Origin: Roseovarius faecimaris
GTDB lineage: Bacteria; Pseudomonadota; Alphaproteobacteria; Rhodobacterales; Rhodobacteraceae
Assembly (NCBI RefSeq): GCF_009762325.1
Contig: NZ_CP034348.1
Location: 378,501-442,500 of the forward strand
Length of the DNA: 64,000 nt
Direction: 5' to 3'
In this document: positions 11,421 through 64,000 of the stretch, piece by piece
How positions within the stretch are numbered: the stretch's first letter is position 1
How the letters are laid out: every line of letters begins with the position of its first letter
Position numbers and translations under genes: made by a program
Notes under the pieces: generated by a model
The model's database searches: none
What the model was told of the DNA's origin: nothing
Seen by the model: the letters and a program-made list of their open reading frames with translations, nothing else

Positions 11421-11421
11421 C

Positions 11422-14207: not shown

Positions 14208-14220
14208 GCCGAGCCGGAGC

Positions 14221-14245
14221 GGTGCGTGAGATCACGCACCCTACG
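14221..14245. repeat. Dispersed hairpin repeat ending CACCCTAC, copy 1
   Basis: GGTGCGTGA and TCACGCACC form a 9-bp perfect stem around GA, followed by CTACG. The same 25 bases recur exactly at 24881-24905, also just after a stop codon. It can act as a transcription stop or message stabiliser after tdm. Confidence 0.8.
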
Positions 14246-14309
14246 GACGGGCATTGCGCTTGGGTAAAAACCGTGCCACGCATCCGCTGACCAGACCTGA
14301 ACGGACCCG

Positions 14310-15476
14310 ATGCGCGCCGGATTGACCCTCCTTTTGCTGGCCTATGTGCTCAGCCAGTTTTTCCGCGCCTTCCTCGCGGTTCTCAGCGGCGTGCTGGAGA
14401 CAGATCTTGGTTCCACACCGGATGATCTCTCGGCTGCGTCCGGCCTGTGGTTCCTGACCTTCGCCGCCATGCAGATCCCTGTGGGCGCCGCGCTCGACCG
14501 GATCGGCCCGCGCCGCACGGCGGCGGTGCTTCTACTGATCGGCGGGGGCGGGGGGGCCGTGCTCTTTGGTCTGGCCGCCTCGGCTTTGCATATCAAGCTT
14601 GCCATGGCGTTGATCGGCGTCGGCTGCGCGCCGGTTCTGATGGCCTCCTACTACATTTTCGCGCGCCAGTTTCCGCCCGCGCAATTCGCCACTCTGGCCG
14701 CGCTCATGGTGGGCGCAGGCTCGGTGGGCAATCTCATTGCCGCCTATCCGATGGCCTGGGCGGCGGAAAGCTTCGGCTGGCGCGCTTCGCTCTTCGGGCT
14801 GGCCAGTATCTCTATCGCCGTGGCTCTGGGCATTCTGGCGCTTGTGCGGGATCCGCCTCCGCTGGAGGCCGACACCAAGGGCTCGCTGCTCGATCTTTTG
14901 CGCATGCCGGCGCTCTGGCTGATCTTCCCGATGATCTTTGTCAGCTACGCCCCGGCGGCGGCCATTCGCGGGCTCTGGATCGGGCCCTATCTGAGTGACA
15001 CGTTTGGCCTCACCACCGCGCAGATCGGCCAGGCCACGCTGATCATGGGGATGGCGATGATCCTTGGCGCACTGGCCTATGGCCCGCTCGACCGGCTGCT
15101 TGGCACACGCAAATGGGTGGTCTTCGGCGGCAGCGCGGCCTGCCTCGCGGCGCTTCTGGGGCTGATCCTCCTTGGCCCTTCCGGTGCGGCGCTTTCCATT
15201 GCCCTCTGTGCGGCTGTGGGCTTTTTCGGGATCAGCTATCCGGTGGTCATGGCCCATGGCCGCAGCCTCATTCCGCCACATCTGACAGGCCGGGGTGTGA
15301 CCCTGCTCAACCTTTTCAGCATCGGCGGGGCAGGGGTGGTGCAATATGCCTCGGGGCCTCTGCATGTGGCGGCGGGTGGCGGGGCGGCGGGCTACACGAT
15401 GGTCTTTGGCTTCTTCGCTGCACTCCTGGCGCTGGGCATGGTGATCTACCTCTTTTCCAGCGACAAGGTGGGCTGA
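14310..15476 (+). CDS. Major facilitator superfamily transporter
   Basis: A 388-residue protein with about 12 hydrophobic segments and a central basic/acidic loop near residue 190. The loop after helix 2 contains ALDRIGPRR, the usual MFS motif A position. It begins 102 bp after tdm, beyond a hairpin repeat, so it may be separate from that operon. The transported substrate cannot be inferred. Downstream is the asd gene in the same direction. Confidence 0.85.
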   Translation: MRAGLTLLLLAYVLSQFFRAFLAVLSGVLETDLGSTPDDLSAASGLWFLTFAAMQIPVGAALDRIGPRRTAAVLLLIGGGGGAVLFGLAASALHIKLAMALIGVGCAPVLMASYYIFARQFPPAQFATLAALMVGAGSVGNLIAAYPMAWAAESFGWRASLFGLASISIAVALGILALVRDPPPLEADTKGSLLDLLRMPALWLIFPMIFVSYAPAAAIRGLWIGPYLSDTFGLTTAQIGQATLIMGMAMILGALAYGPLDRLLGTRKWVVFGGSAACLAALLGLILLGPSGAALSIALCAAVGFFGISYPVVMAHGRSLIPPHLTGRGVTLLNLFSIGGAGVVQYASGPLHVAAGGGAAGYTMVFGFFAALLALGMVIYLFSSDKVG

Positions 15477-15585
15477 GGGCCATCCGCGCGCCGATCTGCC
15501 GCGGCCTGCGCGCATAAGTCCCTTTCCCCGGGCGCGCGATAGGTTTAAGAGGCCGCAGCCAACCCTGTAAGATGGAGTCAAGAAG

Positions 15586-16608
15586 ATGGGTTATCGAGTC
15601 GCCGTCGTCGGTGCCACGGGTAACGTGGGCCGCGAAATGCTGAACATCCTGGCCGAGCGCCAGTTCCCCGCCGATGAGGTGGTGGCCCTTGCCAGCCGCC
15701 GCAGCCTCGGCACCGAAGTCAGCTATGGCGATACAACCCTGAAGACCAAGGACCTTGAGGCGTTCGACTTCACCGGATGGGATATCGCGCTGTTTGCCAT
15801 CGGCTCGGACGCGACCAAAACCTACGCGCCCAAGGCCGCCAAAGCGGGTTGCGTCGTGATCGACAACTCGTCTCTCTACCGCTACGACCCGGATATTCCG
15901 CTGGTCGTGCCCGAGGTGAACCCCGAGGCGGTTGAGCAATATACCAACCGCAACATCATCGCCAACCCCAACTGCTCGACTGCGCAGATGGTGGTGGCGC
16001 TGAAGCCGCTGCATGATCGCGCGACGATCAAGCGCGTGGTGGTCAGCACCTATCAATCGGTGTCCGGTGCCGGCAAGGAAGGCATTGACGAGCTCTGGGA
16101 TCAGACCAAGGCGGTCTATAACCCGACCTCCGAAGTCCCGCCCTCCAAGTTCCAGAAACAGATCGCCTTCAACGTGATCCCGCATATCGACGTCTTCATG
16201 GAGGATGGCTCCACCAAGGAAGAGTGGAAGATGGTGGCGGAAACCAAGAAGATCGTGGATCCGTCGATCAAGGTCACGGCCACCTGCGTGCGCGTGCCGG
16301 TCTTTGTGGGCCATTCCGAGGCGGTGAATATCGAGTTCGAGGAGTTCCTCGACGAGGACGAGGCCCGTGACATCCTGCGTGAGGCGCCGGGCATCATGGT
16401 GATCGACAAGCGCGAAGCGGGTGGCTACGTGACGCCGGTGGAATGCGTGGGCGACTATGCCACCTTCATCAGCCGCATCCGCCAGGACAGCACGATCGAG
16501 AACGGTCTGAACCTGTGGTGCGTCTCCGACAACCTGCGCAAAGGCGCGGCTTTGAACGCAGTGCAGATTGCCGAAACGCTTGGCGCGCGCTGCCTGAAGA
16601 AAGGCTGA
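15586..16608 (+). CDS. asd: Aspartate-semialdehyde dehydrogenase
   Basis: A 340-residue NADP-dependent enzyme that reduces aspartyl phosphate to the semialdehyde on the route to Lys, Met, Thr and diaminopimelate. The nucleotide-binding GATGNVGREML is at residue 9, the catalytic Cys is in NPNCSTAQ near residue 130, and the active-site His region appears as VPVFVGHSEAV. Length and motifs fit the gram-negative/alphaproteobacterial type. A clear terminator follows inside the end of the convergent gene. Confidence 0.97.
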   Translation: MGYRVAVVGATGNVGREMLNILAERQFPADEVVALASRRSLGTEVSYGDTTLKTKDLEAFDFTGWDIALFAIGSDATKTYAPKAAKAGCVVIDNSSLYRYDPDIPLVVPEVNPEAVEQYTNRNIIANPNCSTAQMVVALKPLHDRATIKRVVVSTYQSVSGAGKEGIDELWDQTKAVYNPTSEVPPSKFQKQIAFNVIPHIDVFMEDGSTKEEWKMVAETKKIVDPSIKVTATCVRVPVFVGHSEAVNIEFEEFLDEDEARDILREAPGIMVIDKREAGGYVTPVECVGDYATFISRIRQDSTIENGLNLWCVSDNLRKGAALNAVQIAETLGARCLKKG

Positions 16609-16615
16609 GGTTGGT

Positions 16616-17095
16616 TTAAACTTGGTCGATGACCTGAAGGTCAGGCGCGTCTTCGGGCGCGCCTTTCGTTTTGGACGAAAGGAATTTTTCCTCTAGCCAG
16701 GTATGCGCTTGACCGGGAAAGGGGGCTGCAAATCGGCGCATGAGACGCGAATAGCTGAACCCCAGTTCGGATGCCTTGCAAAGCCGCGTGTCCTGTGGCC
16801 ATCGGTGTAGGGCCAATCCTCCACCTGCGGCGCGCAGGACATAGCCTTTTGCCTTCAACCGTTGATCCAGGTCGCCCCAATCCTGGCTCAACGCCAGATC
16901 GCTTGCGAGGCGCGCACGTAAGGGCGCGATGAGCTGCTCGTCCGCCCTGACAGGCGGCCTCGCATTGTGGTGGCGCGAAATTTCCCGCGCCAGCAGATCG
17001 CGTACCATTTGTCCAAGGGTCACATCCCTCTCACGCGCAATCGCCGCGGCCGCGTGGAGCATCTCGACGCTGAGTTTCAATTGCATCCGTTCCAT
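16616..17095 (-). CDS. Ribbon-helix-helix-like hypothetical protein
   Basis: A 159-residue protein starting at an ATG with GAGG 8 nt upstream. The first 45 residues (LKLSVEMLHAAAAIARERD, then LGQMVRDLLAREI) look like a ribbon-helix-helix domain: one strand plus two helices. The rest is basic and contains LKAKGYVLRAAGGGLALH, a compact segment I cannot assign. Its 3' end contains the asd terminator (16643-16672), so the last about 20 codons also serve the neighbour. Possible DNA-binding role; no partner gene is adjacent. Confidence 0.6.
   Translation of the reverse strand: MERMQLKLSVEMLHAAAAIARERDVTLGQMVRDLLAREISRHHNARPPVRADEQLIAPLRARLASDLALSQDWGDLDQRLKAKGYVLRAAGGGLALHRWPQDTRLCKASELGFSYSRLMRRFAAPFPGQAHTWLEEKFLSSKTKGAPEDAPDLQVIDQV
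16643..16672 (+). terminator. Rho-independent terminator of asd
   Basis: AGGCGCG and CGCGCCT pair around a TCTTCGGG loop and are followed by TTCGTTTT, 35 nt after the asd stop. It lies within the coding end of the convergent 159-residue gene. Confidence 0.7.
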
Positions 17096-17216
17096 GCCGC
17101 AACCTCAGCAGATCAAGGTTACCAAAGCGTGAATCCGGACATTCCCAAGAAAATGTCTTGCACCCGCCAAGAAACCCGGCCGACACTGCGTCTTATTCCC
17201 AAAAGGAGTTTGCCCC

Positions 17217-18863
17217 ATGATGCGTTTCTTCGCCCTTTGCCTGACCCTCACCAGCCCCGTCGCCCTCTTTGCCGGGGATATTCCTGTTTCCAGCATGGTT
17301 AGCGCGGCCACGCTTTACCCCGAAGGCGCGACCATCACGCGTGAGGCGGCGTTCGACGCTCCGGCGGGCGAACATCGGCTGATCCTGACCGATCTGCCCG
17401 AAAGCACCCCGCTGGAAAGCATTCGTGTCGCAGTAGAGGGGGCCACCATGGGCAGCCTGACCCTGCGCGAGGATTACGTGCCGCCGCGTACCGACGGGCC
17501 CGGCGCCGCCATTGAGGCCGCAGAGGCCGAAGTGGACCGCCAGGAAATCAGGCTGTCGCAAGCACAGGCCGATATACAGGCCATCCGGCTTGAGGCCGAT
17601 GCCGCGCGCGCGCGCGCTGCCTTCCTGCGGCAACTGGGCGAGGGCGAAGGCGTGGCCGCGCTCGATACCGCCGCGCTGCGCGATCTGCTGGGCATGATCG
17701 GAGAGGAGACCCTGACCGCTCTGCAAACGGCGCATGAGGCCGAGAGGCGCGCCGATCTCGCGGCGCGCGACCTGAAAGACATCGAGGAAGAGCTGGAACA
17801 GGCCCGCCAGGCCCTGCGCGCCCTCGTGCCCGAAGACGAGGAACGCGCCCTGCTGGCGGTAACGATTACATCGCCGGAACCGACAAGCGGCAGACTGGTG
17901 ATCACCTACAACACCTACGACTCCCTTTGGTTGCCGGTCTATGACCTCAAGCTGGACCGCGCCGATGAGGTGCTGACCTTCGAGCGCGGTGCTTTCGTGG
18001 CGCAGGGAACGGGGGAGAACTGGATCAATGTGGCCCTCACCCTCTCCACCGTCCGGCCGACTGAACGTATCGCGCCCTGGGAGGTCGGCCCGCATCTTCG
18101 CAGGATCTATGATCCCGAGGAAGAAGCCCGCGCCCGAGCGCGGGCCGTGGCGGAAACCGACGCCATGCTCGGGGCAGTTGGCGGCGCGATGGAAGAACCA
18201 TACATCGCTCCTGCTGTTGAGGCGGCTATGTCGGCCGATTTTGACGGTCTCGCGGTCACCTACACCTATCCGCAGCCCGTATCGCTGGCCTCCGGCGCCG
18301 ATTACCTGCGCCTCGCTCTCGACACGCTCGAGACGGATGTCGAGATCAAGGCCCGCGCCGTGCCGCTCAATGAGGATGTGGCCTATCTCACCGCCGAACT
18401 CACCAACGATATGAATGAGCTGATCCTGCCTACACACCTTGCCAATTTCTATCTCGACGGGCGGTTCATGGGGCAAAGCCATCTTGAGATGATCCCCGCC
18501 GGGGCCGATGCCGATATCGCCTTCGGTCCGATCGACGGGCTGCGCCTCACCCGCACTGTGCTGAACCGCAACGAGGGCGATCGCGGCATGCTCAGCCGCT
18601 CTACCGAACAGGTCGAGGAGGTGCGCATCGAGATCGAGAACCTGACCGGCACGGGCTGGGATGTCGACCTTATCGACCGCGTGCCCTATTCCGAACAGGA
18701 GGATCTCGAGATCACCTGGTCGGCCGACCCGATGCCCGACGAACAGGATATCGACGGCAAACGCGGCGTAATGGAATGGGAGCTCTACGTGGGCGCGGAT
18801 GAGACCTCGACCGTCACCCTCTCGCATCAGATGGAATGGCCCGAAGGCCAGGCCCTGCGCTGA
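17217..18863 (+). CDS. DUF4139/mucoidy inhibitor MuiA-family exported protein
   Basis: A 548-residue protein with an N-terminal signal peptide (cleavage near LFA|GD) and AAAGGAG before the ATG. Residues about 35-110 match the N-terminal beta domain of the MuiA family, about 98-200 are a long Ala/Glu/Arg coiled coil, and about 215-548 the DUF4139 beta-rich domain with VITYNTYDSLWLPVYDLKL. Family members act in the periplasm or outer surface; a cell-envelope role is likely but undefined. It converges on the sbtB gene across a terminator-like repeat. Confidence 0.85.
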   Translation: MMRFFALCLTLTSPVALFAGDIPVSSMVSAATLYPEGATITREAAFDAPAGEHRLILTDLPESTPLESIRVAVEGATMGSLTLREDYVPPRTDGPGAAIEAAEAEVDRQEIRLSQAQADIQAIRLEADAARARAAFLRQLGEGEGVAALDTAALRDLLGMIGEETLTALQTAHEAERRADLAARDLKDIEEELEQARQALRALVPEDEERALLAVTITSPEPTSGRLVITYNTYDSLWLPVYDLKLDRADEVLTFERGAFVAQGTGENWINVALTLSTVRPTERIAPWEVGPHLRRIYDPEEEARARARAVAETDAMLGAVGGAMEEPYIAPAVEAAMSADFDGLAVTYTYPQPVSLASGADYLRLALDTLETDVEIKARAVPLNEDVAYLTAELTNDMNELILPTHLANFYLDGRFMGQSHLEMIPAGADADIAFGPIDGLRLTRTVLNRNEGDRGMLSRSTEQVEEVRIEIENLTGTGWDVDLIDRVPYSEQEDLEITWSADPMPDEQDIDGKRGVMEWELYVGADETSTVTLSHQMEWPEGQALR

Positions 18864-53830: not shown

Positions 53831-53905
53831 GCCCGGGTAGCTCAGGGGTAGAGCAGTGGATTGAAAATCCTCGTGTCGGTGGTTCGATTCCGCCCCCGGG
53901 CACCA
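53831..53905 (+). tRNA. tRNA-Phe (anticodon GAA)
   Basis: A 75-nt cloverleaf with acceptor stem GCCCGGG/CCCGGGC, D-arm GCTCAGGGGTAGAGC, anticodon loop TTGAAAA (anticodon GAA), T-arm GGTTCGATTCC and an encoded CCA end. A discriminator A precedes CCA. A tyrosine recombinase gene begins its 3' end 41 bp downstream, so this tRNA is probably the attachment site of the following element. Confidence 0.97.
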
Positions 53906-53946
53906 TTCAATTATATGATATTGCTCGATATTCATTTCCGAGACTT

Positions 53947-55038
53947 TCATGGTTTGACAGGTTTCTGGAAGGGTTTGACAACTTTTGATCTGCGTTCGTT
54001 CTCCTTTTCCAGCGTCTCCATCTTTATCCGGTTGCGGTCCGCTAGGTTCGCAGACCGGGAGTAGTGGCGGGCCATAGACGGGGTTTTCTGCCCGAGCAGG
54101 TCTGCAATCTGGCGTTCCTCAAGCCCCGCCTCACGTAGCGTCGTGGCCACCGTATGCCGCAGCCCCTTGAGGGTCAGGCCGGGTTGAACAGCTTCCTCGG
54201 CTTCCAGCTTCTTCTTGAAGCGGTGCCAGACCGTCGAAAAGCCGTTATACGTCCAAGGCCTCCCAGCGGACGTTGCAAGGATCGTCACCGCGTCGTGGAT
54301 CGGTGCTGCGTCTAGAGCCTTTTGCAGCGTTGGGCCGATGGGAATGGCAACCTCTTCGCCGGTCTTGCCCCGGAAGCCCCAGATCGTGTCGGCGTCGATT
54401 TGGCGACGGGTCAGCTTGAGTGCATCGGACGGATCAAGGCCAGTGTTCATGATCAGCGCGACCGCCGCCCGGACGTGGGGCGCGGCCCTTTCCAGCACGA
54501 CGGCACGTTCCTCAACCGTCCAGGGCCGGTTGGCATAGGGCCGATCCTTCGGACGCGGCTTGGGAATGACGTCCGCTGCATAGTCTCGATCGATCAATCC
54601 TTTCGGAATGACATGGCGGAAAACTTGGCTCAGGACGGTGCGGACCATGTTTGCCCGCCGCCAGCCGATCTTGCGCGCCGCCTTGTCATGGATGCCCGAC
54701 ACAAGTGGCGTGGTGATTGCGGAAACCGGCGTGTCGCGGATCGGGTGCAGGAAATCAGCGCATTTGCGATAGTCGCGCTTTGTGGCATCTGCCAGATTGC
54801 CAAAGTGCTCAGTCTGGAAATAGGTATTTAACAATCCACCAAGAGTGCCGGGCTTGGGGGCCTGCGCTTTCTTCGTCTCAGCAATAGCCGCAATGCGGGC
54901 GCATTCTGCGAAAAACTCAGCCGATCCCAGCGGTGTCTTTTCCAGGTTAATCTTGTGGCCCGTGGCGCGATGATAGCAGCGCCGTTTTCCGTGCCGGTCA
55001 TTGAAAATCTTGAAACCCTTTACCCTGATTTGCGTCAT
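53947..55038 (-). CDS. Tyrosine recombinase/integrase next to tRNA-Phe
   Basis: A 363-residue site-specific recombinase. An N-terminal arm-binding/core-binding region (1-160) is followed by the catalytic domain. Visible active-site parts: FRGKTGEEV (Lys), LKGLRHTVATTL (Arg; Lys in place of the usual His) and LLGQKTPSMARHYSR (Tyr; Gln in place of the second His). The first Arg, normally TGLRxSD, reads TGLDPSDALKL. It points toward the tRNA, as island integrases often do. It starts at the stop of the small DNA-binding gene. It may still be active if another Arg serves; not certain. Confidence 0.9.
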   Translation of the reverse strand: MTQIRVKGFKIFNDRHGKRRCYHRATGHKINLEKTPLGSAEFFAECARIAAIAETKKAQAPKPGTLGGLLNTYFQTEHFGNLADATKRDYRKCADFLHPIRDTPVSAITTPLVSGIHDKAARKIGWRRANMVRTVLSQVFRHVIPKGLIDRDYAADVIPKPRPKDRPYANRPWTVEERAVVLERAAPHVRAAVALIMNTGLDPSDALKLTRRQIDADTIWGFRGKTGEEVAIPIGPTLQKALDAAPIHDAVTILATSAGRPWTYNGFSTVWHRFKKKLEAEEAVQPGLTLKGLRHTVATTLREAGLEERQIADLLGQKTPSMARHYSRSANLADRNRIKMETLEKENERRSKVVKPFQKPVKP

Positions 55039-55274
55039 TACAACTTCCCAAGAATGGCTTCTTGCGTGGCCATCTCAGCTCCTTCCTTCATCGTATCAAT
55101 CCAGCGGTCCAAGTCGCGCTTGTCCCATGACTTAGTGCCCAAGCGAATTTCGAGCGGTTGCACCGGGCAAGTTGTCTTGAAGTATTTGATGGGTAGGCCG
55201 GTGTATGCCGCTGCCTCTGTCTGGCTCAGCAAACGCTTTTCAAGGACGCAGATGTTTAGGTTTGCATTAGCCAT
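55038..55274 (-). CDS. Small excisionase-like DNA-binding protein
   Basis: A 78-residue protein. LSQTEAAAYTGLPIKYFK resembles the MerR/excisionase winged HTH, and SWDKRDLDRWIDTM ends the domain. Its stop overlaps the integrase start, so it is probably the directionality factor or a regulator of the integrase. The ATG giving MANANLN is chosen over an upstream extension. Confidence 0.75.
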   Translation of the reverse strand: MANANLNICVLEKRLLSQTEAAAYTGLPIKYFKTTCPVQPLEIRLGTKSWDKRDLDRWIDTMKEGAEMATQEAILGKL

Positions 55275-55352
55275 TAGTGTGGTCTCGCGATTTTGGCAGC
55301 CATGCCATACTCCGCCAAGAAGTGTGGGTCGTGGGCGTGTTGCCTGCAAAGG

Positions 55353-55565
55353 TCATGCGCCCGCCTCTATATTGGAGCCTGAATGCAGGTCTTGGCCGAC
55401 GCGATACTCCTGAACCGCGGCGTCAACCTCCGCTTCATTCCAATATACGCGACGGCCCATTTTCATTGGTGCTGGCAAGCGGCCGAGTTTCACGTCACGA
55501 TACAAGCTGGTCCGTGACCGACCGCCGAGTTTCGCAGATAGCTGTTCGAAGTTGATGAAGTTCAT
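55353..55565 (-). CDS. AlpA-type small DNA-binding protein
   Basis: A 70-residue protein with FEQLSAKLGGRSRTSLYRDV and GRLPAPMKMGRRVYWNEAEV, the pattern of AlpA/excisionase-like winged helices. It lies 78 bp upstream of the other small DNA-binding gene on the same strand. AlpA regulates integrase or excision genes in several elements. Confidence 0.8.
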   Translation of the reverse strand: MNFINFEQLSAKLGGRSRTSLYRDVKLGRLPAPMKMGRRVYWNEAEVDAAVQEYRVGQDLHSGSNIEAGA

Positions 55566-55666
55566 TCTGACGCTCCATGTTCCGTCATGGAGCATCAAAG
55601 CATAGATTGCCTTAGCAGTGCTATACACTCAGAATAAATTTGAACGTACATCGAGGGCACGCAAGA

Positions 55667-56323
55667 TCACTTCTTACTCTTATCGCCGGGAATGTGGTTC
55701 AGCGGATGAACTTGTGGGTGCATCTTTAAGATAGCCCCGACGTGCGGGGGAACGTCATCGCTTTCTATTCCAAACAAGCTGCTTTCGTGTCCCCGTAGTC
55801 CCAAGTCTATTTCGACCTCCCAGCGACCCCAAGGGACTGGCGGTTTGCGCCCTGAACGATCCCGCCGAATTGTCTGGCTGGCCGCCTCGAAGTCTGTATC
55901 CTTCAGCCCTTCTCTGGCATACCGCAAAGCATCCAGATATCCTCCTCCGGGCCATTGAATCAGGTCTTCGAACCATAGCTTGATCGTCTTCCGTGGCATC
56001 CATTTGTAAAGGAATGGGAGCCTCTGCCAGGCGCGGACGTACTGGTAGGCAGAAGCGCGAACGGTTTGGCGAAAGCTAGTCTTTAGACCTGTGAGATAGA
56101 GTTGCTCGGGATCGTGCAACCCGTCAATCTTGCCGCAGAGGAGCTTTGCATATCGATCACTGAAAGTGTGATGAGCCCATGCTGGCAGTGGAGCCAGCCC
56201 GTCTCTGGATGCCTTGAGGGCTTGGAGCGGCGCGAGCAAGTCTCCTTTGTCAAAGCAATTTTGAAGTGCCTTTAGTGTTGCTTCGCCACCCCAGGGGATT
56301 TCAATCTTCTGACCGTTTTGCAC
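55667..56323 (-). CDS. Hypothetical protein of the integrated element
   Basis: A 218-residue soluble protein rich in Trp, Tyr and basic residues (for example YQYVRAWQRLPFLYKWMPRK). I see no known domain, signal peptide or membrane helix. The base composition is lower in GC than the core genome, in keeping with transfer. It is between the AlpA-like gene and the HNH gene. Confidence 0.6.
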   Translation of the reverse strand: MQNGQKIEIPWGGEATLKALQNCFDKGDLLAPLQALKASRDGLAPLPAWAHHTFSDRYAKLLCGKIDGLHDPEQLYLTGLKTSFRQTVRASAYQYVRAWQRLPFLYKWMPRKTIKLWFEDLIQWPGGGYLDALRYAREGLKDTDFEAASQTIRRDRSGRKPPVPWGRWEVEIDLGLRGHESSLFGIESDDVPPHVGAILKMHPQVHPLNHIPGDKSKK

Positions 56324-56355
56324 TTCTTGTCCTTACCGCCACCTTACCGGCAGCG

Positions 56356-56688
56356 TCACTGCGTTTCGAATCGCTTGGGTTCATTATCGACGAGCGCCGG
56401 AGGCACGCAAACACTCACGGAGGCAATCGTCAGTTCCTTTCTTCCATCGCCAAGACATGCCGCTACATTTTTTGCACTTCGTGCATCAACGTCTTCATCA
56501 TAATGAGCGCGGTGATGGCAGTTGGGGCAGATGGCAATGACATATCGCGGGTCATCCGGCCCGCCATCAGTCATATGGCGGATGGGGTAGGCTCCCAAGT
56601 ACGGTTGACCTTTGGGAGTTATGAACGGAGCGGGTGCCCGGCAGTGCTCGCAATGCCCATCGTCGCGTGCGGACACATAGTCCCTCAA
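56356..56688 (-). CDS. HNH endonuclease-like protein, 5' end uncertain
   Basis: A 110-residue frame starting at TTG. It has a zinc/HNH module: CEHCRAPAPF, then TDGGPDDPRYVIAICPNCHHRAHYDED, giving two CxxC pairs and the HH-RxH residues. The family is usually longer upstream. The same frame stays open back to about 56806 (PIQETRTTTLFERSKAL, typical of such proteins) but without ATG or GTG. Two ATG frames with a good GGGAGGGAGGG site at about 56840-56850 enter in other phases. A frameshift near 56700-56800 is possible. Confidence 0.65.
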   Translation of the reverse strand: MRDYVSARDDGHCEHCRAPAPFITPKGQPYLGAYPIRHMTDGGPDDPRYVIAICPNCHHRAHYDEDVDARSAKNVAACLGDGRKELTIASVSVCVPPALVDNEPKRFETQ

Positions 56689-57161
56689 AGCTTTGCTGCG
56701 CTCGAATAGGGTCGTAGTTCTGGTTTCTTGAATTGGAGCGGCTTCAGCAGCCGCCAGAGCGCGGCGACATGGCTCGTCTTGGGGCCGGGGGCGGGCGGAG
56801 CGGTTTCATCGGCCTCAGCAGCTTCTGCCAGGCCCCCCATGCCATCTGATTTCCCTCCCTCCCCCTTTTCATTATCGCTTACTTAAGTGTTTCTTTGTCG
56901 GCATTCGACTTTCTTGCTTTTCTAGCAGTAGAGCATCAGAAACCAACCTTGGTGCACTGGTTGTTTCACGTGTCGTCTTTGCTTGGTAGTAGGCAGCTGG
57001 AGTATCGGTGAACTAAAGTTCACTTCGGGGTTTGCTGCCACCCAATCTTTATCATTCTTAGCGCGCCTCAGAGCCGCTCGATGCGCTTTCTATCACTTGC
57101 TGGGAAGAGTAAGACCATGCGGTAATCCGGACGGCCGCGCGGCCCGGTTTCAGGCCAATTG
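56689..57161. other. Spacer with possible 5' part of the HNH gene
   Basis: About 470 bp. The first 150 bp may code the N-terminal part of the HNH protein (see that entry). The next part is AT-rich around 56870-56960 and likely holds the promoter. The palindrome GTGAACT-AA-AGTTCAC is at 57008-57023. No further gene is convincing. Confidence 0.5.
57008..57023. promoter_or_regulatory. Palindromic site GTGAACTAAAGTTCAC
   Basis: Perfect 7-bp arms around AA, inside the integrated element. A near copy, GTGCACTCAAGTTCAC, is at 57568-57583, one mismatch per arm. Both are preceded by CG. They look like operators of an element-encoded regulator. Confidence 0.45.
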
Positions 57162-57347
57162 TCAGGATGCGGCTTCTATGTGGTCCGCAAATATCCGCAA
57201 TGCCGCCGCCGCCGCATCTCGTTCATACCGCGCTTGCAGCGTATGGTCATTGACCTGCATTAGGGCTCTAATTTGGTGCGCATCACCAGCCTCACATGCG
57301 GCAACAGCTTGTTCGATGATTTCGATGAAGTTTGTTGGGTGGGTCAT
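57162..57347 (-). CDS. Small hypothetical protein of the element
   Basis: A 61-residue helical protein, MTHPTNFIEIIEQAV at the start. A weak GGGAT lies upstream of the ATG. No family recognised. Length and position make it uncertain; it might be an antitoxin-like or regulatory protein. Confidence 0.45.
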   Translation of the reverse strand: MTHPTNFIEIIEQAVAACEAGDAHQIRALMQVNDHTLQARYERDAAAAALRIFADHIEAAS

Positions 57348-57881
57348 AGATTGATCCCGTGGGTTCTATGCCGGGTTTTTCCCGCCATTCCTGCTAAATC
57401 TTAAATGATTTCCTGCCGATTTGTAAAAAAAATCCTATTAACCTATTGTTATTAATTGTTTAAATGAGGTTCAGGATTTCCCATTTTAATCTTTGAGATA
57501 ACCATCATCCTTACCTATATAGATGGTCTCCGACAAACTCGGGACGATGCACAGCGACCAAATCGCGGTGCACTCAAGTTCACTGATCCCGTTTGGCCCC
57601 AACACCGGACGTTCGTGCAAGGGGCAGTGAATTCACACCCAGAGCCCACAGCGGAAGTAATGATTCCTCGCTGCGCGCGCGCGCAGCACGGAAATTGCTG
57701 CGGGCACTTGGATTTTGGCGCGCGAAGGCGGCGGTGAAACCGGCCATTCATTCGGGCTGCTACTAAGTTTGGAGCACAAACCCGCGGGTGGCAGGCCAGA
57801 TACAATCAGGATTGCGAGTAGCATTCCAACGTCAGCGCGGTGCTGATGCTTGGGTTAGGAGGGCGGCAAGGAGGGCAAATC
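57348..57881. other. AT-rich and repeat-bearing spacer before the second recombinase
   Basis: About 530 bp. The first part (57395-57500) is very AT-rich with T and A runs, a good promoter region. Then come the second copy of the 16-bp palindrome at 57568-57583 and an alternating CG run near 57676-57687. No gene is convincing; open frames in this part lack start signals. Confidence 0.5.
57568..57583. promoter_or_regulatory. Second copy of the GTGxACTxAAGTTCAC palindrome
   Basis: GTGCACT-CA-AGTTCAC, differing from the site at 57008-57023 at two positions. Lies 300 bp upstream of the short recombinase gene. Confidence 0.4.
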
Positions 57882-58514
57882 ATGCCTCGATTCCAACTTC
57901 CTGCTGTTACCCCGAAACGTAAAACCTGGAACAAGGGGCGGATCGTCGGCCAGAAGCGACCGCTGCTACCAAAACAGGTTTGGGCCATCCGAGCGCGACT
58001 GGAGCTGGCGAACAACCTTCGCGATCTGGCGCTATTTAACGTTGCCATCGACAGCAAGCTACGTGGATGTGATCTGGTCAGGCTCTCTGTGGTCGATCTG
58101 GTCAAAGAAGATCGCGTCCGAGAACGTGTTTCGGTCATTCAGAGCAAAACCAAGCGGCCTGTTCAGTTTGAACTGACGGAAAACACAAGGGAAACTGTCT
58201 TGGCTTGGGTCAAGTCACCCGAGATGTTGGCCTGCTCGTTCATGTTTCCCAGCCGCTTCCACGATCGACCGCATATCTCAACCCGTCAATATGGCCGGTT
58301 GGTGCACGATTGGGTGTCGTCGATTGGTCTGGAACCAAGCGGATACGGAACGCATTCGCTTCGCCGAACCAAAGCTGCTGAGATCTATCGAAAAACAGGT
58401 AACCTGCGCGCAGTTCAGCTCTTGCTAGGACACACAAAGGTCGACAGCACGGTGCGCTACTTGGGAGTTGAACTCGAAGATGCGCTGAGTATCGCCGAAA
58501 ATATTGACCTTTAG
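57882..58514 (+). CDS. Short tyrosine recombinase
   Basis: A 210-residue recombinase that is essentially a catalytic domain with a short N-terminal arm. The active residues are all present: Arg in SKLRGCDL, Lys in SKTKRPV, His and Arg in THSLRRT, His in LLGHTKVDS, Tyr in VRYLGV. GGAGGG precedes the ATG. Similar short recombinases without a core-binding domain occur singly in alphaproteobacterial genomes. It is 2.8 kb from the tRNA-linked integrase and may mark a nested element or a distinct recombination system. Confidence 0.9.
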   Translation: MPRFQLPAVTPKRKTWNKGRIVGQKRPLLPKQVWAIRARLELANNLRDLALFNVAIDSKLRGCDLVRLSVVDLVKEDRVRERVSVIQSKTKRPVQFELTENTRETVLAWVKSPEMLACSFMFPSRFHDRPHISTRQYGRLVHDWVSSIGLEPSGYGTHSLRRTKAAEIYRKTGNLRAVQLLLGHTKVDSTVRYLGVELEDALSIAENIDL

Positions 58515-58709
58515 GCATTGGGTGAGCGGCTGATGCCGCTCGCCTTTGCGGGCCGACCCGCTGCAAGCATCAGGTTTGACGTAAAATGACCAGCGCCGCC
58601 AAAATCTATTTGGCGTCCGCTCGCCATAACCATCCCGGACCAGATAAAGTCGGGTGAATTGGCTGCCAGCTCCAAGTGGGCAATCACTCAGACGGCCAAC
58701 CCTTTTAGC
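58515..58709. other. Short spacer after the second recombinase
   Basis: About 195 bp in which no gene or clear structure is seen. Confidence 0.4.
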
Positions 58710-59390
58710 TCAAGTAGCGATACGGATGGCGGCGCAAAGTTCGGGGTGCAGAATCCAGTTCCCCGGTTTCTCTTCGTGTCCGGAAACACCGCGAGAACCA
58801 ATTAACGCCATTCCATCACAACTGGTTGAAGGCACCTTGGAACCTGACTCTGAAGACAAATATCCAGCAATCGTTCGACCCGCGCTTGCTAGAGCCTTTC
58901 TTGCCGAGATAGTGGACTTGTAGCTGCCCGCATTCGCGATCCTCTCCTCTGTCAACCCATCTGCTTCCGCCAGTGACAACGCCATCAACATGGCGCCCTG
59001 CGGTTTTGTCAGCTTTACAGTGTTGAGGGCCTCAACGTATTCGTCGGATGTTGGTACCTGTGTCCCGGTGCTTTGATCTGTCCTGCGGTCCTCGCTCCTG
59101 CGGATATCACGCGCGTCGATGGCGGAATGCAACGCGGCGATTGCGGCCTCTTCAGTCTCACCAGTTGCCTCGGCAATCAGACCGCGTGCCTTTGTTGGTG
59201 GCATTGGGAATGCCCGGGCCATGTATACACCCGCGATATAACCGGACTTGATCTGATATCTACCATACTCGCCCACACGGATCGTCGCAGCGGCTTCTTT
59301 CTTGGGCTCCTTGGCCTTCGATTTCTTGGACATACCCTTGAAGATGCCACGCCCCGCATCTGATCTGTTTGGCGCTGTGTAAACTGACAT
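58710..59390 (-). CDS. Hypothetical protein, basic N-terminus and helical core
   Basis: A 226-residue protein starting at ATG with AGGAG 9 nt upstream. The N-terminus has a Lys/Glu-rich run (SKKSKAKEPKKEAAATI), and the middle reads YGRYQIKSGYIAGVYMARAF. A later helical segment, LTEERIANAGSYKSTISARKAL, resembles a winged-helix-like turn. A second ATG at 59333 is an alternative start. No known family recognised; likely element cargo. Confidence 0.6.
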   Translation of the reverse strand: MSVYTAPNRSDAGRGIFKGMSKKSKAKEPKKEAAATIRVGEYGRYQIKSGYIAGVYMARAFPMPPTKARGLIAEATGETEEAAIAALHSAIDARDIRRSEDRRTDQSTGTQVPTSDEYVEALNTVKLTKPQGAMLMALSLAEADGLTEERIANAGSYKSTISARKALASAGRTIAGYLSSESGSKVPSTSCDGMALIGSRGVSGHEEKPGNWILHPELCAAIRIAT

Positions 59391-59509
59391 TGGCTGGTCT
59401 CCTGAGGATGGCAAGTCACAACGCCAGTTCGGTGGTTACCGATCCGGGCAATGGAACTGCTGCGTTAGTCGGTGGAAGAAAACTAAGAAACAAATGGCCG
59501 TCGGGCGAT

Positions 59510-59532
59510 GGGACGCTCCAAAGGAGCGCCCC
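59510..59532 (-). terminator. Hairpin after cspA
   Basis: GGGACGCTCC and GGAGCGCCCC form a 10-bp stem (one G-T/A-C defect) around AAA, 10 bp beyond the cspA stop on the minus strand. It probably ends the cspA transcript. Confidence 0.65.
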
Positions 59533-59542
59533 GTTGCATAAT

Positions 59543-59749
59543 TCAGGCGAGCGCGATGTTGGTTGCGCTTTCGCGGCCATCGCGGCCGGACTCGACGTCG
59601 AAGGTCACCTTCTGATCGTCGTTCAGGGTGGTCATGCCCGACTTCTCGAGTGCGGAGATGTGCAAGAACACATCCTTTCCACCTGTGTCAGGTGCAATGA
59701 AGCCGAAGCCTTTGGTGGTGTTGAACCATTTCACTGTGCCGTTGGCCAT
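59543..59749 (-). CDS. cspA: Cold-shock protein (CspA family)
   Basis: A 68-residue RNA/DNA-binding protein. RNP motifs KGFGFI and DVFLHIS are present, with GTVKWFN at the start. AAGGAAAATTC lies upstream. About 150 bp of leader before the next gene allows the long 5' UTR typical of cold-shock genes. Confidence 0.95.
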   Translation of the reverse strand: MANGTVKWFNTTKGFGFIAPDTGGKDVFLHISALEKSGMTTLNDDQKVTFDVESGRDGRESATNIALA

Positions 59750-60005
59750 GTGAATTTTCCTTATTTGATCGCTGCCCGCGACATGCGGCAGCCCGGCTTC
59801 TTACAACAGTGTCTAGCGCTGTGAGCCGGTAAAGGAAAACAGAGGGTCGAATGGAGTTCAGTAGCTATATATATGTGGTGGCCTCCCGGCTGAGTTACAA
59901 GGTGCGGGCCAACTGATCGCCAGTATTTCCTTTGCCAAATGAGCTTTTATCCCCTAAAGATCACAAGCTGCTGGATACCCTGGCAGCCAGAAAAGGAAAG
60001 CCGTA

Positions 60006-60140
60006 ATGTCGTTCAACGACTTGGCGAAGAATGAGGCCGCCGAAAAAAAGGCCTCGCAAGAAAAAGATACGAAATCGCAGACTGCAACTAAACGACCTTC
60101 TGAAGCAAAGACCGAGCCCACCGACCCAAAAACGGGTTGA
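60006..60140 (+). CDS. Small Lys/Glu-rich hypothetical protein
   Basis: A 44-residue protein starting MSFNDLAKNEAAEKK and rich in Lys, Glu, Ala and Thr, so probably disordered. AAAGGAAAG stands 4-12 nt before the ATG. Too short for general gene finders; the strong ribosome-binding site and the neighbouring small genes support it. An opposite frame is its shadow. Confidence 0.65.
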   Translation: MSFNDLAKNEAAEKKASQEKDTKSQTATKRPSEAKTEPTDPKTG

Positions 60141-60187
60141 AAGGCTGAGCATTTAGGCTTCTCTTATCCAGCGTAAGAGGGTCGGCG

Positions 60188-60424
60188 TTACAAGCGTTGC
60201 GAAAGGTTGCCGCCAAGAACGATCCCATTGATCAGCTTGGCGGTTACCGTATGTAATTTTCGCTCTAATTCTGGACCTTGGGCATTTTCGTGGGTGGCTG
60301 CCGCATCGCGGAGAATGCCGACAATCTCGCGCTCCGGCAGCAGATTGCTGTCTTGCAAGGCAAGTAGGAGGGCCTCGCAAATCGAGAAGGCTGCCATGCC
60401 TGCGGGGTCTTGTGGGTCTGACAT
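60188..60424 (-). CDS. Small conserved-looking protein, divergent from the Crp/Fnr regulator
   Basis: A 78-residue protein (MSDPQDPAGMAAFSICEALL) with a helical, acidic core that continues LPEREIVGILRDAAATHENA. GAGGAATGCC precedes the ATG. The upstream open extension crosses into the regulator's promoter and is not used. It may be controlled by the divergent regulator. Function unknown. Confidence 0.7.
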   Translation of the reverse strand: MSDPQDPAGMAAFSICEALLLALQDSNLLPEREIVGILRDAAATHENAQGPELERKLHTVTAKLINGIVLGGNLSQRL

Positions 60425-60572
60425 CGGGCATTCCTCTTTCGTTCGTTCTATTACGGCCGAGTTGGGACTTGATCGTCCTAAACTCACAAAGAGTTTGGTA
60501 TCCCGTACTGATCGAAAGCAGTCTCGGCGCCGAATTCTTCTATGAGTACCCGCCGGTTCGGGAGGGACCGAT

Positions 60573-61304
60573 ATGAACATCAAAGCCAGTCCACTCACCC
60601 AAAAGCTTTCTGCGTTCGTTGCACTGTCGGAGACTGAACTGGTCGTTCTTGAACGCTTGCACCAGAGAAGGAAGTCTTTCTCAGCAGGGCGCGATTTGGT
60701 TCACCAAGGCCAATCCGAACAGGCGGCCTACATCCTGGCGTCGGGTTGGGTCGTTTCTTACAAGATCCAGCCTGACGGGTCGCGGCAGATTGTTGATTTC
60801 CAGATACCGGGGGATTTTCTGGGGCTGCGCAGCGTTCTTTTGCACACATCAGATCATGGGATCGAACCCATCGTCGATATCGAGGCTGCGGAAGTTCTGG
60901 TGAGCGATCTTCTGCAAGCCTTCGCAGAGACACCCCGGCTGGCCACAGCCGTTCTCTGGGCCGTGTCGCGCGACGAAGCGATGGTTGTCGAACATCTGGT
61001 TGGGCTGGGGCGGCGCAATGCGGATGCGCGCATGGCGCATTTCCTGCTGGAACTTGGCGTGAGACTGTCACTTGTCGGTATGGGAAGTCGGCAAGGCTAT
61101 GCCTGTCCGCTCACACAGTATCATCTGGGGGATGCGTTGGGGTTAAGTGCTATCCACGTCAACCGCGTCCTTCGCAAACTCCGCGAAGGCGGGCTCGTCT
61201 CGTTTCAGAGCGGGCTGGTCACGTTCGATGACTACGAGGGGCTGGTTGCGTTGGCGGATTTCGATCCGGCCTATCTCGATCAGTCACGGCCTCTTTTGCC
61301 GTGA
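60573..61304 (+). CDS. Crp/Fnr family transcriptional regulator
   Basis: A 243-residue regulator: cyclic-nucleotide-binding beta barrel (about 12-130), a long dimer helix (about 130-165) and a winged HTH with LTQYHLGDALGLSAIHVNRV (about 180-205). There are no N-terminal Cys for a [4Fe-4S] cluster, so it is not an oxygen-sensing FNR; the ligand is unknown. Only a TTGAT half-site is seen near 60469. It is surrounded by small genes that may form its regulon. Confidence 0.9.
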   Translation: MNIKASPLTQKLSAFVALSETELVVLERLHQRRKSFSAGRDLVHQGQSEQAAYILASGWVVSYKIQPDGSRQIVDFQIPGDFLGLRSVLLHTSDHGIEPIVDIEAAEVLVSDLLQAFAETPRLATAVLWAVSRDEAMVVEHLVGLGRRNADARMAHFLLELGVRLSLVGMGSRQGYACPLTQYHLGDALGLSAIHVNRVLRKLREGGLVSFQSGLVTFDDYEGLVALADFDPAYLDQSRPLLP

Positions 61305-61308
61305 AAAA

Positions 61309-61329
61309 GCCGCCCTAAGTTTGGGCGGC
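61309..61329. terminator. Bidirectional terminator after the Crp/Fnr gene
   Basis: GCCGCCC and GGGCGGC form a 7-bp stem around TAAGTTT, with AAAAA on the left and a T-rich segment to the right. It lies between the regulator and the convergent 66-residue gene and can serve both. Confidence 0.7.
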
Positions 61330-61359
61330 CCTGTCGTCTTTTCACAGGCCATACCGACA

Positions 61360-61560
61360 TTACATCAAGGCGCGGCTCGCTTGCTTGAGCTCGTTGTGGG
61401 CCTCTTCGTCGTTTTCGGCTTCATGTGCCTTTTCAGCGGCCTGATAGTGCTTCAGCGCTGCGGCCTTCTTGGGGCCTTCGGGTGCCTTGTCCCAGGCAGC
61501 CTTGACGGAAGCCATGTGTTTCACGGTCTGGTTTTCCTCAGTTTGGTTTTCTACACTCAT
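61360..61560 (-). CDS. Small helical hypothetical protein
   Basis: A 66-residue protein (MSVENQTEENQTVKHM) with a charged helical body AAALKHYQAAEKAHEAENDE. AAAGGACAATTCC precedes the ATG. It looks like one or two amphipathic helices with Ala/Glu/Lys periodicity. Function unknown; it is part of the small-gene group. Confidence 0.65.
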   Translation of the reverse strand: MSVENQTEENQTVKHMASVKAAWDKAPEGPKKAAALKHYQAAEKAHEAENDEEAHNELKQASRALM

Positions 61561-61729
61561 GGAATTGTCCTTTCCTGGACGGTCCGAGAATAAGAGGCGC
61601 AGAATGCATACAGTTCTATTGAGGAACTGCATGTGCCCCGCGCCTCTGAGCTACTCGGAAATAACCACCATGACTTTCGGTGGGTTGGTTCACCTAACCG
61701 GTTTCTCGGTGTCCTTGCACTGACGCAGG

Positions 61730-62146
61730 TTAGCCCGTCTGAGCCAGATAGAAGAACCACGTTAGAACCACGAATCCAACGAGGGCCATCGTTGTCCATG
61801 AGATCGATATTTTAGGAGAGTTGTTGGTGCCTGCTTCGCATGGTTTCGAAACGCGAAGCGGCGCGCGTTTTGGCAGCAGTAAAACCAGCTTCGCCGCTCT
61901 GCCCTCGCTTGCCAAAGCCAGCGCCGGAATATCGGTAATCGCTTCAAAATGCGTTGTCAGCCGAACTTGCGCGTCCTCCCGAGCCAAACGTGCAAGCTCA
62001 CGCGCCTCGGTCCACGGCTCGAGGTCAAGGCGTGCAAGAGCTGACAAGACCGTCACGGCTGCACCGGTTCGGTCCTCCCCCAATTCCGCGAAGAGGAAGG
62101 CATCGTAGTCACTGCCATCTGGGTGAAGGACGTCTGAGGCGGACAT
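61730..62146 (-). CDS. Hypothetical protein with C-terminal membrane anchor
   Basis: A 138-residue protein starting MSASDVLHPDGSDYDAFLFA after GGAAACCC. A helical soluble part includes VTVLSALARLDLEPWTEARE, and the end has one membrane helix (TTMALVGFVVLTWFFYLAQ). The N-terminal pattern recalls small conserved proteins in Rhodobacteraceae genomes. Function unknown. Confidence 0.65.
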   Translation of the reverse strand: MSASDVLHPDGSDYDAFLFAELGEDRTGAAVTVLSALARLDLEPWTEARELARLAREDAQVRLTTHFEAITDIPALALASEGRAAKLVLLLPKRAPLRVSKPCEAGTNNSPKISISWTTMALVGFVVLTWFFYLAQTG

Positions 62147-62382
62147 GGGTTTCCTTTCGGCGTTAGATTGAGGCGAAGACTTGCACGGAGGTGTCTGAAG
62201 CCGCGAAACGGCTTTACCTCTTACCCTGACAGTAAAGAACCGGACGGGGGCTAACCTCGATCAGCTTCATCCCGCGCGGGTTCGGATAGTGTGCACTCAA
62301 TTGCCTTGCCTTGGCGTTCTTTTCGACGTTCGCCACGACGGCGACGGCGGAAAGTCCAGCATCTTTTCAATGGAGACCCGGG

Positions 62383-62697
62383 ATGTTCATGCGTTCGACC
62401 AGATCGATGGTGACGTTATCAAATGACTTCACAATTGGCGAAAGCCAGCAGGAGCTTCCGGCCGGAACGTATGAAATCGTTGTTGAGGAAGAACTAATAC
62501 AAGGCCTCAGCTTCGAGGCTTACCGGCGCACCGCGACTTACCTGATGGTCCGGGGACGCGGCAGCAATGCGGGTCAAACGACGATGCAAATGACCACAAA
62601 CGAGGAACTCGAACATGCGATGGCATGTGATCGAGCCCTCTCCGAAACCACCAATGACAGCGAAGCGGCGCTTTCCCCGCAAAAGGACACGACATGA
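62383..62697 (+). CDS. Hypothetical protein (beta-rich, 104 residues)
   Basis: Starts at the ATG after GGAGACCCGG; an earlier ATG at 62311 has no such site. DFTIGESQQELPAGTYEIVVEEELIQG suggests a small beta-rich fold, and the C-terminus is polar. It overlaps the next gene by ATGA. No family recognised. Confidence 0.6.
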   Translation: MFMRSTRSMVTLSNDFTIGESQQELPAGTYEIVVEEELIQGLSFEAYRRTATYLMVRGRGSNAGQTTMQMTTNEELEHAMACDRALSETTNDSEAALSPQKDTT

Positions 62698-63047
62698 CAA
62701 CACCTGAATGGCTGAAACCCGGCATCTACGGCGCGCTTCTTGGCGCGGCGTTTGTCGGCATCGTTGGATTTTCCTGGGGCGGCTGGATGACCGGTGGCGG
62801 CGCAGAGGAGATGGCCAACAAGATGGCGAAAGAGGAAGTGATCGCGGCGCTTGTGCCCTTGTGCCTCGATATGTCCCGCACCGACAATGAACGCGTTGCA
62901 AAACTGGCTACGATCCGCGAGGCATCGTCATTCAAGCGGCGTGAAGCTGTTATGGAAACCGGCTGGGTGACGATGCCCGGAACAGATGGCCCGAACCGCG
63001 ATCTGGCACAGGCATGCATCGAAGGTCTCGACCTTGATGCATCGTAA
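62694..63047 (+). CDS. Small membrane-anchored hypothetical protein
   Basis: A 117-residue protein with one N-terminal membrane helix (PGIYGALLGAAFVGIVGFSW), then an Ala/Met/Lys-rich helix and a soluble part with two Cys (LVPLCLDMS and AQACIEG). The pattern suggests a periplasmic domain with a possible disulfide. It overlaps both neighbours. Confidence 0.65.
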   Translation: MTTPEWLKPGIYGALLGAAFVGIVGFSWGGWMTGGGAEEMANKMAKEEVIAALVPLCLDMSRTDNERVAKLATIREASSFKRREAVMETGWVTMPGTDGPNRDLAQACIEGLDLDAS

Positions 63048-63870
63048 TGACCTAAAACTGTCGCCTGTTTCGTCCAAGAGCGCCTTAGGCGTGCTCGCCA
63101 CGGTGTTTTTCACGGAATTCCTTGCGCTCGCCTTTGTCGCGTTCATCGCGATCGGATCGCCGTCTTTCGCCCAATCTCAATCGGCCCCGATGCCCGCGAA
63201 TGCGCGGCCCAAAAGCTATGGCGAGGGATGGGAGTGTGATCGTGGATACCGGCGTGACGGCGATGCGTGTCTTGCCATCATCGTTCCGGAGAACGCCTAT
63301 GCCACCAACCGGACCTATGGCAAGGGCTGGGAGTGTCTGCACGGATTTCAGGAGGTCGATGACGCGGCTTGTTTTGAGGTCGTCGTTCCCGAAGGCGGCT
63401 ATCTCGACCCGTCGGGACAAAGATGGAGCTGCCTTCGTGGCTACATGAAGGTCGACGACATTTGCATCGAAGTCGTTGTGCCGGACAATGCGTATCTGTC
63501 GGCTGACTCTTATGGCGCCGCTTGGCTTTGCAACCGTGGCTACCAGATCGAAGGCGACACATGCGTCGCAATCGCGGTCCCGGAGAACGCCTTTCTGAAT
63601 GGCTCCGGATACGGGCAGCCCTGGACATGTGAGCGGGGCTACTTCGAACGCGATGACACCTGCGAGGCTGTTGTCGTCCCGGAGAATGCTTATTTCGACG
63701 ATGCAAGCTATGGCCCAGGCTGGAAGTGTAATCGCGGCTTTGCAGAGTCCGACGGCGGCTGCACAGAGATCGACCTCCCCGAAAATGCGCATCTCAACCG
63801 ATCGGGAAACGGGTGGGAGTGCCATAGGAATTTTCAGCGCTCGCGAGGGCGTTGCGTCCTGAACGACTAG
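63037..63870 (+). CDS. Exported protein of seven cysteine repeats
   Basis: A 277-residue protein. A long hydrophobic signal region (about 14-46) is followed by about 60-277 made of seven repeats of about 31 residues. The consensus is W-x-C-x-R-G-Y, then acidic residues, C, hydrophobic V/P, PENAY, and a YG spacer; each repeat has two Cys, likely one disulfide each. Six repeats are full and the last is short, ending CVLND. The start MHRNDLKL lies 11 bp inside the preceding gene. The family is known to me only as uncharacterised repeat proteins; secretion and binding or structural use are inferred. Confidence 0.72.
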   Translation: MHRNDLKLSPVSSKSALGVLATVFFTEFLALAFVAFIAIGSPSFAQSQSAPMPANARPKSYGEGWECDRGYRRDGDACLAIIVPENAYATNRTYGKGWECLHGFQEVDDAACFEVVVPEGGYLDPSGQRWSCLRGYMKVDDICIEVVVPDNAYLSADSYGAAWLCNRGYQIEGDTCVAIAVPENAFLNGSGYGQPWTCERGYFERDDTCEAVVVPENAYFDDASYGPGWKCNRGFAESDGGCTEIDLPENAHLNRSGNGWECHRNFQRSRGRCVLND

Positions 63871-63959
63871 CGCTCGCAATCCAAATTGAAACACGGCTCA
63901 CCCGCCCGAATGCTTCATGTGATCGGACCCGGGAAAACCCGCTCGGCAAAGGAATAATC

Positions 63960-64000
63960 ATGGAAACGGACAATGCAGAAAACACGATGACAAGGCTGTC
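63960..64000 (+). CDS. Start of a gene cut by the window end
   Basis: ATG at 63960 with AAGGAATAATC directly upstream opens a frame beginning METDNAENTMTRL that runs off the window. Only 13 codons are visible, so the product cannot be named. Confidence 0.45.
   Translation, partial: METDNAENTMTRL

Follow-up and report, generated by a model that had tools for sequence, protein, structure and literature searches.

Introduction

Gammaproteobacteria carry transmissible loci of stress tolerance, known as tLST or LHR. In EGF-like domains there are four to six cysteines, and the full set of six pairs 1–3, 2–4, and 5–6; animal proteins with EGF-like or TNF-receptor-like chains often serve in binding. 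In the fold-type III PLP racemases, a conserved lysine takes the PLP-binding role. With respect to D-amino acids, a passage of PMC11747546 describes a D-glutamate N-acetyltransferase and an N-acetyl-D-glutamate racemase that lead from D-glutamate to N-acetyl-L-glutamate, and PMC10845958 names a DgcN–DgcA pathway of D-glutamate.

The locus considered here lies at the end of a stretch of 64,000 nucleotides from the marine bacterium Roseovarius faecimaris (the window), in which an initial annotation had noticed a secreted protein built from two-cysteine repeats. This protein, P0001, belongs to a common and uncharacterised family found in the mobile stress clusters of Alphaproteobacteria from sea and soil; it counts hundreds of members, for which NCBIfam has no name and Pfam offers a doubtful match at most. 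In the Rhodobacteraceae, one of its subfamilies forms a compact operon with two enzymes that are candidates for acting on D-amino acids, and this operon is a new lead, direct and testable, to the function of the family. The enzymes lie almost entirely past the window end and could not be seen by the initial annotation, which had half of the cluster in view. The features of the locus are given in Table 1.

Table 1. Features of the repeat-gene locus. Positions are those of the window unless a locus is named; "80 loci" are those of the best 80 of 521 relatives.
Feature	Position	Strand	Evidence
tRNA-Phe, left edge of low-GC region	53831..53905	+	ARAGORN
Tyrosine recombinase (integrase) next to tRNA-Phe	53947..55038	-	Pfam Phage_integrase, 52.1 bits
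Cold-shock protein, module neighbour	59543..59749	-	27 of 80 loci have a Csp homologue
Crp/Fnr-type regulator upstream of operon	60573..61304	+	Pfam cNMP_binding and HTH_Crp_2; 46 of 80 loci
P0006, small conserved protein, 104 aa	62383..62697	+	Family in 63 of 80 loci
P0002, small single-pass membrane protein, 117 aa	62694..63047	+	Present in 80 of 80 loci
P0001, predicted exported seven-repeat, 14-cysteine protein	63037..63870	+	Sequence, unit map, shuffle test, AlphaFold, dN/dS
P0003, DUF1611 (DgcN-like) gene, 399 aa	63960..64000 (first 41 bases in window)	+	
AENEGMP sites	L002:14131 (P0005 C-terminus), L191:13839, L157:5751 and 8161		
AENEGMP sites, continued	L061:6391 and 12143, L037:5127 and 7052		

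The Repeat Protein and Its Units

The reading frame of P0001 opens with an ATG at 63037, closes with a stop codon at 63868–63870, and encodes 277 amino acids. Residues 1–45 form a signal region whose hydrophobic stretch closes with SPSFA-Q at residue 46. A crude home-made rule (hydrophobic stretch plus AxA) is passed by 74 of the best 80 of 521 relatives, which fits the signal region proposed initially, and P0001 is probably exported, with the periplasm as its likely location. From residue 52 onward the protein consists of seven two-cysteine units, starting at residues 52, 83, 117, 148, 181, 214, and 247 and measuring, in order, 31, 34, 31, 33, 33, 33, and 31 residues. Each contains one W-x-C...C pair (67/78, 100/112, 132/143, 165/176, 198/209, 231/242, and 262/273), so that all 14 cysteines fall inside the units and none outside. 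The pattern W-x-C-x-x-[GN]-[FY]-x(5-8)-C matches P0001 seven times; when the mature protein was shuffled 100,000 times, it was absent from 99,861 of the versions, occurred once in 139, and never occurred more than once. The seven repeats of about 31 residues first described are therefore real, and the motif written for them was a loose one: units 1, 3, 4, and 5 carry the exact RGY, which gives way to HGF, RGF, and RNF in units 2, 6, and 7, and an exact VPENAY occurs in two units, 2 and 6.

The repeat gene is under purifying selection, with dN/dS values of 0.17–0.30 against six relatives. In the mature region dN is 0.05–0.11 and dS 0.23–0.73, and the dN of the signal region exceeds that of the mature region in five of these six comparisons.

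AlphaFold, run with 51 sequences, models P0001 as an all-beta chain to which every unit contributes three to four short strands (mean pLDDT 87.3, pTM 0.54). The units themselves are well modelled, and the pTM makes their relative placement uncertain; of the rod-like chain first suggested, the model reproduces the regular repeat architecture and does not establish a straight rod. Among solved structures, EGF and TNF-receptor chains come nearest, at weak scores: Foldseek relates the model to NELL2/NEL EGF and TNF-receptor chains (PDB 6pog, 9oz8, and 7kp7) at an E-value of 1e-4, with TM-scores of 0.19–0.24 for the two best-scoring matches, and the best VIA-align result has a Z of 3.9 over 66 residues. 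A fold search against viral models returned mostly fibre proteins, at TM-scores of 0.23 or less. In terms of sequence families, EGF_MSP1_1 (Pfam PF12946) scores 32.6 and 35.4 bits on the whole of P0001 (cut-off 27) as a sum over the units, and matches 46 of 51 family members at E 0.01, with a best value of 2e-13. No single stretch of mature P0001 passes, and often none does in other members; a genome-scale search with PF12946, which included the source genome, did not recover the P0001 gene. Profile alignment of the family to PDB 1n1i gave an E-value of 0.1. The P0001 unit is read as a small hairpin that would resemble an EGF domain in its C-terminal half, whether through descent or convergence. 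An EGF module derived from eukaryotes is not claimed, as PF12946 exceeds its cut-off solely when the units are summed and misses the gene in the genome-scale search.

Distribution of the Family

A scan of GTDB contigs gave 591 stretches matching the search patterns, 521 of which encode a relative of P0001; the initial view that such a protein is unusual for a Gram-negative bacterium does not hold at these numbers. The best 80 of the 521 were kept. Most belong to genomes whose names place them in the Rhodobacteraceae or in roseobacter genera; being picked by similarity, the 80 favour the subfamily called A below. Alignments A2 and A3 comprise 50 and 49 of them, respectively, plus the window protein. 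Seven units are found in 78 of these 80 relatives and 14 cysteines in 79, while 15 copies from other alphaproteobacterial families have between four and eight units, with twice as many cysteines as units in 14. A cysteine number that is twice the unit number is the pattern expected for pairs formed within units, and gives computational backing to the one pair per unit assumed from the outset; P0001 would be disulfide-paired in this way. With a variable number of units and one pair in each, the family would represent a simple bacterial disulfide-repeat scaffold.

Between species, units at the same position are 0.58–0.78 identical and units at different positions 0.31–0.46 (means from 17 of the 51 alignment rows). 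The units are therefore orthologous by position, and the seven-unit array is old, fixed, and without reshuffling in this group of relatives. In samples of the class and the phylum, the repeat gene was present in 19 of 385 and 13 of 398 genomes, respectively. Plasmid records with the gene number 28, mostly of Ensifer, Rhizobium, and Sinorhizobium, and weaker plasmid matches come from Vibrio, Shewanella, and Burkholderia. In a Shewanella xiamenensis plasmid (L149, 5029–6474) a PG_binding_1 domain (57.5 bits) is followed by five near-identical shorter units; the cluster around this gene includes Hsp70 and Tn7-type transposition genes.

A phage origin of the repeat gene was considered and is opposed by two empty searches: 50,697 phage records contained no relative of the repeat protein at E 0.1, and none of the 21 IMG/VR stretches that fit the pattern encodes one. 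PADLOC, which covers anti-phage defence, assigned no family to the six proteins submitted at E 0.01. A literature search, with most subscription journals outside its scope, recognised no paper on the repeat family or the module.

Small Overlapping Genes Upstream

The repeat gene follows two small genes in close overlap: the stop codon of P0006 overlaps the start of P0002, and the 3′ end of P0002 overlaps the start codon of P0001. The small membrane-anchored protein noticed just upstream in the initial annotation, P0002, was recovered in every one of the best 80 of 521 loci and lies directly upstream of the repeat gene in 72 of them. Its residues Cys57 and Cys108 are invariant in 50 alignment rows. 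A fold search with P0002 gave no match, the query model being poor (pLDDT 68.1). P0002 may be in contact with the repeat protein encoded next to it.

P0006 fell in no Pfam or NCBIfam family. A distant relative of it, P0005 (L002:13660–14181), is encoded downstream of the operon and has no Pfam family either. Proteins of the P0005 type end in AENEGMP, often followed by x-RP, and the same motif occurs in an open frame ahead of several repeat genes; it is conserved with synonymous changes.

Two Downstream Enzymes and Their Linkage to the Repeat Gene

The gene of P0003 extends past the window end to 65159 in window numbering (L002:10961–12160) and is followed by that of P0004, an Orr-like PLP enzyme, which runs to 66277 and lies wholly outside the window. 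P0003 belongs to the DUF1611 family, as it passes Pfam PF07755 (226 bits) and PF17396 (93.2 bits); it also matches PDB 7xrj, its P-loop GTDCAIGKR is invariant in 79 relatives, and with the NCBIfam model of DgcN (NF041892) it scores 169.8 bits, below the cut-off of 480. P0004 aligns over nearly its whole length with the model of the ornithine racemase Orr (NF040742) at 268.2 bits, also below a cut-off of 480, and contains Ala_racemase_N (PF01168, 80.4 bits). Its Lys36 (VTK), the presumed PLP lysine, is invariant in 79 relatives, and by domain and lysine P0004 classifies as a putative fold-type III PLP racemase. Both proteins look intact at the level of sequence. P0003 is a candidate DgcN-like amino-acid N-acyltransferase and P0004 a candidate Orr-like amino-acid racemase, with D-amino acids as the presumed substrates. 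The source genome holds a second, more distant DUF1611 gene at C2:87902.

In the best 80 of 521 loci, the DUF1611 and Orr-like genes are each present in 79; the one locus lacking the enzymes, L055, is a short contig of 5.3 kb. The Orr-like gene comes directly after DUF1611 in 78 of the 79, the exception being L108, where the top-scoring Orr match is at another place. A larger set of 91 loci holds duplicates of the same genome, and the 80 are quoted instead. Since these loci were chosen by similarity, a second sample was drawn evenly from the Rhodobacteraceae. Among its 198 genomes, a DUF1611 gene of this type occurs in 19 and the repeat gene in 33, at 38 places: 16 copies of subfamily A, 18 of subfamily B, and four fragments, the classes being assigned by score against a profile built from A-type rows. 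DUF1611 adjoins 15 of the 16 A copies and none of the 18 B copies. In these 15 genomes, which represent 15 genera, the gap between the two genes is 91–177 bases and strand and order are the same. Seen from the enzyme, 15 of the 19 DUF1611 genes are adjacent to the repeat gene, three genomes (G793, G846, and G923) lack the latter, and in G867 the nearest repeat gene is a B copy 8.4 kb away. The B copies examined form one cluster of the tree with a support of 1.0; L044 grouped with them, its second copy having been used, and its row in the unit count may be of the same kind. An A-type repeat gene with one internal TAG stands beside an intact DUF1611 gene at G899:C9:24615–25424. Outside the Rhodobacteraceae, two of 15 genomes with the repeat gene have close homologues of both enzymes, located elsewhere in the genome, and no close DUF1611 homologue was found in the remaining 13.

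A Mobile Stress Module

At tRNA-Phe begins an island of low GC that contains the window copy: the GC content is 0.639 for positions 1–53800 and 0.555 for 53906–64000. The integrase next to the tRNA may belong to an integrative element. For the right end of the island, a genome-wide search for the 25-base end of tRNA-Phe with up to two mismatches gave no second copy. A recombinase and unnamed small genes at 57840–58514, 58710–59414, and 61730–62146 are conserved with the module in close relatives; among the 91 loci, duplicates included, the XerC-like gene is found in 32, p58710 in 24, and mem61730 in 45.

Further neighbours in the best 80 of 521 loci are one transglutaminase (25), GroEL (6), and HflK (4), and any of eight stress genes is present in 41, most loci ending at 8 kb or at a contig end. 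Annotated plasmids of four Rhodobacterales, Ruegeria conchae, Paracoccus zhejiangensis, Roseovarius indicus, and Phaeobacter porticola, carry the repeat gene together with varying sets of Crp/Fnr, P0006- and P0002-type, GroEL/GroES, HflK/HflC, NhaA, and transglutaminase genes, and a plasmid of Aliiroseovarius crassostreae has the enzyme operon, with no chaperones in view. Around the subfamily B copies examined, the neighbours are transglutaminase, HflK/HflC, GroEL/ES, and NhaA genes, and rhizobial copies lie near cold-shock, desaturase, DUF1488, and BON genes. The source genome has a second stress module in L037 (G000:C2:2648000–2667999) at 5194–17346. Compared with the conjugative plasmid of R. 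indicus it is 92–99% identical in NhaA, GroEL, Crp, P0002, HflK, and HflC, and only a signal-peptide remnant of its B-type repeat gene is left (6735–7112).

With regard to shared control, no FNR-type box was found in window positions 60001–64000, and one was found in only one of the 40 relatives whose upstream region could be anchored, the other 40 not being anchored by the pattern. No EcfG-type (general stress) promoter was detected upstream of 19 repeat-gene copies outside the Rhodobacteraceae.

Possible Functions of the Repeat Protein

The explanation that we tentatively prefer, at somewhat less than even chances, is that P0001 serves the envelope as a disulfide-stapled protein of the periplasm, belongs to a mobile stress module, and is coupled to D-amino-acid enzymes in the Rhodobacteraceae. 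According to this proposal, the protein would be exported to the periplasm, where each unit would be closed by a disulfide between its own two cysteines and form a small beta hairpin module; the seven units would make an extended, robust chain with its place of action in the cell envelope and the inner-membrane protein P0002 as its probable partner. The repeat gene would belong to a mobile module for stress tolerance. In subfamily A its operon would additionally encode two cytoplasmic enzymes that process a D-amino acid, and envelope protection would then be expressed jointly with the metabolism of wall-derived D-amino acids. The assignment to the envelope draws on the signal region, the cysteine pairing, the neighbours, and the Shewanella homologue with PG_binding_1; of the options offered in the initial annotation (adhesin, inhibitor, or envelope spacer), the envelope is the best in view of that homologue or of the neighbouring HflK/HflC, GroEL, NhaA, and cold-shock genes, and none of the observations indicates an adhesin or an inhibitor. 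A role of the repeat protein in stress is suggested by the same company of genes. Points that weigh against this explanation are the pTM of 0.54, the repeat genes outside the Rhodobacteraceae that lack an adjacent enzyme pair, the three DUF1611 genomes with no repeat gene, the presence of a stress gene in no more than 41 of the best 80 of 521 loci, and the negative promoter searches.

The repeat gene might instead be a hitch-hiker that shares its mobile module with other, unrelated cargo genes, a possibility that we regard as rather unlikely. The module does carry regulators, chaperones, transglutaminases, and recombinases as well, two genomes outside the Rhodobacteraceae hold the repeat gene and the enzymes far apart, and three of the 19 DUF1611 genomes have no repeat gene. 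Against mere co-travel stand the short gaps and the constant strand and order across 15 genera, together with the 79 of the best 80 of 521 loci, and this constancy points to an operon that selection has maintained.

A periplasmic binding or sensing protein, whose repeats would hold a wall fragment or a D-amino acid and either deliver it to the enzymes or signal to them by way of P0002, is less probable still. Near-obligate adjacency to both enzymes in subfamily A and the PG_binding_1 fusion in Shewanella would suit such a protein, whereas the conserved operon contains no transporter and the subfamily B and rhizobial copies have no enzymes nearby. As for an extracellular adhesin or spacer, as the initial annotation had offered, its nearest structural matches are indeed EGF-like and TNF-receptor-like chains, but these matches are weak (best Z 3.9, TM 0.24 or less), no outer-membrane secretion partner is seen in the conserved operon, and the neighbours are stress and amino-acid genes, all of which makes it improbable.

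The preferred explanation, an envelope protein of a stress module, can be extended to a complete mobile envelope-protection system, in which the periplasmic hairpin-repeat chain and P0002 would act on the wall while the cytoplasmic N-acyltransferase and racemase would make or recycle a wall D-amino acid under stress. In this extended form it is quite doubtful. The occurrence of the repeat gene without the enzymes outside the Rhodobacteraceae and the lack of a shared promoter signal count against a single tight system, and no such envelope-protection system was found in the literature searched.

Comparison With Known Systems

With the EGF_MSP1_1 and EGF-like domains, the P0001 unit shares a W-x-C...C hairpin after a VPENA-like stretch; an EGF-like domain requires six cysteines, however, and the unit has two (14 in seven units). 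The NELL2/NEL EGF arrays and the cysteine-rich chains of TNF receptors are likewise strings of small disulfide-closed beta modules, and the scores obtained fit a common arrangement only. As regards the DgcN–DgcA pathway, P0003 matches the NCBIfam model of DgcN, which represents D-glutamate N-acetyltransferase activity, at a score far below its cut-off, and in the window operon DgcA is replaced by the Orr-like PLP enzyme. The latter resembles the ornithine racemase Orr over nearly the whole length, yet remains under the 480-bit threshold. Finally, the tLST/LHR loci, as generally described, are like the present module in that they are mobile and bring together genes for protein quality and for envelope stress; the gene sets of the module described here consist of GroEL/ES, HflK/HflC, NhaA, transglutaminases, and Crp.
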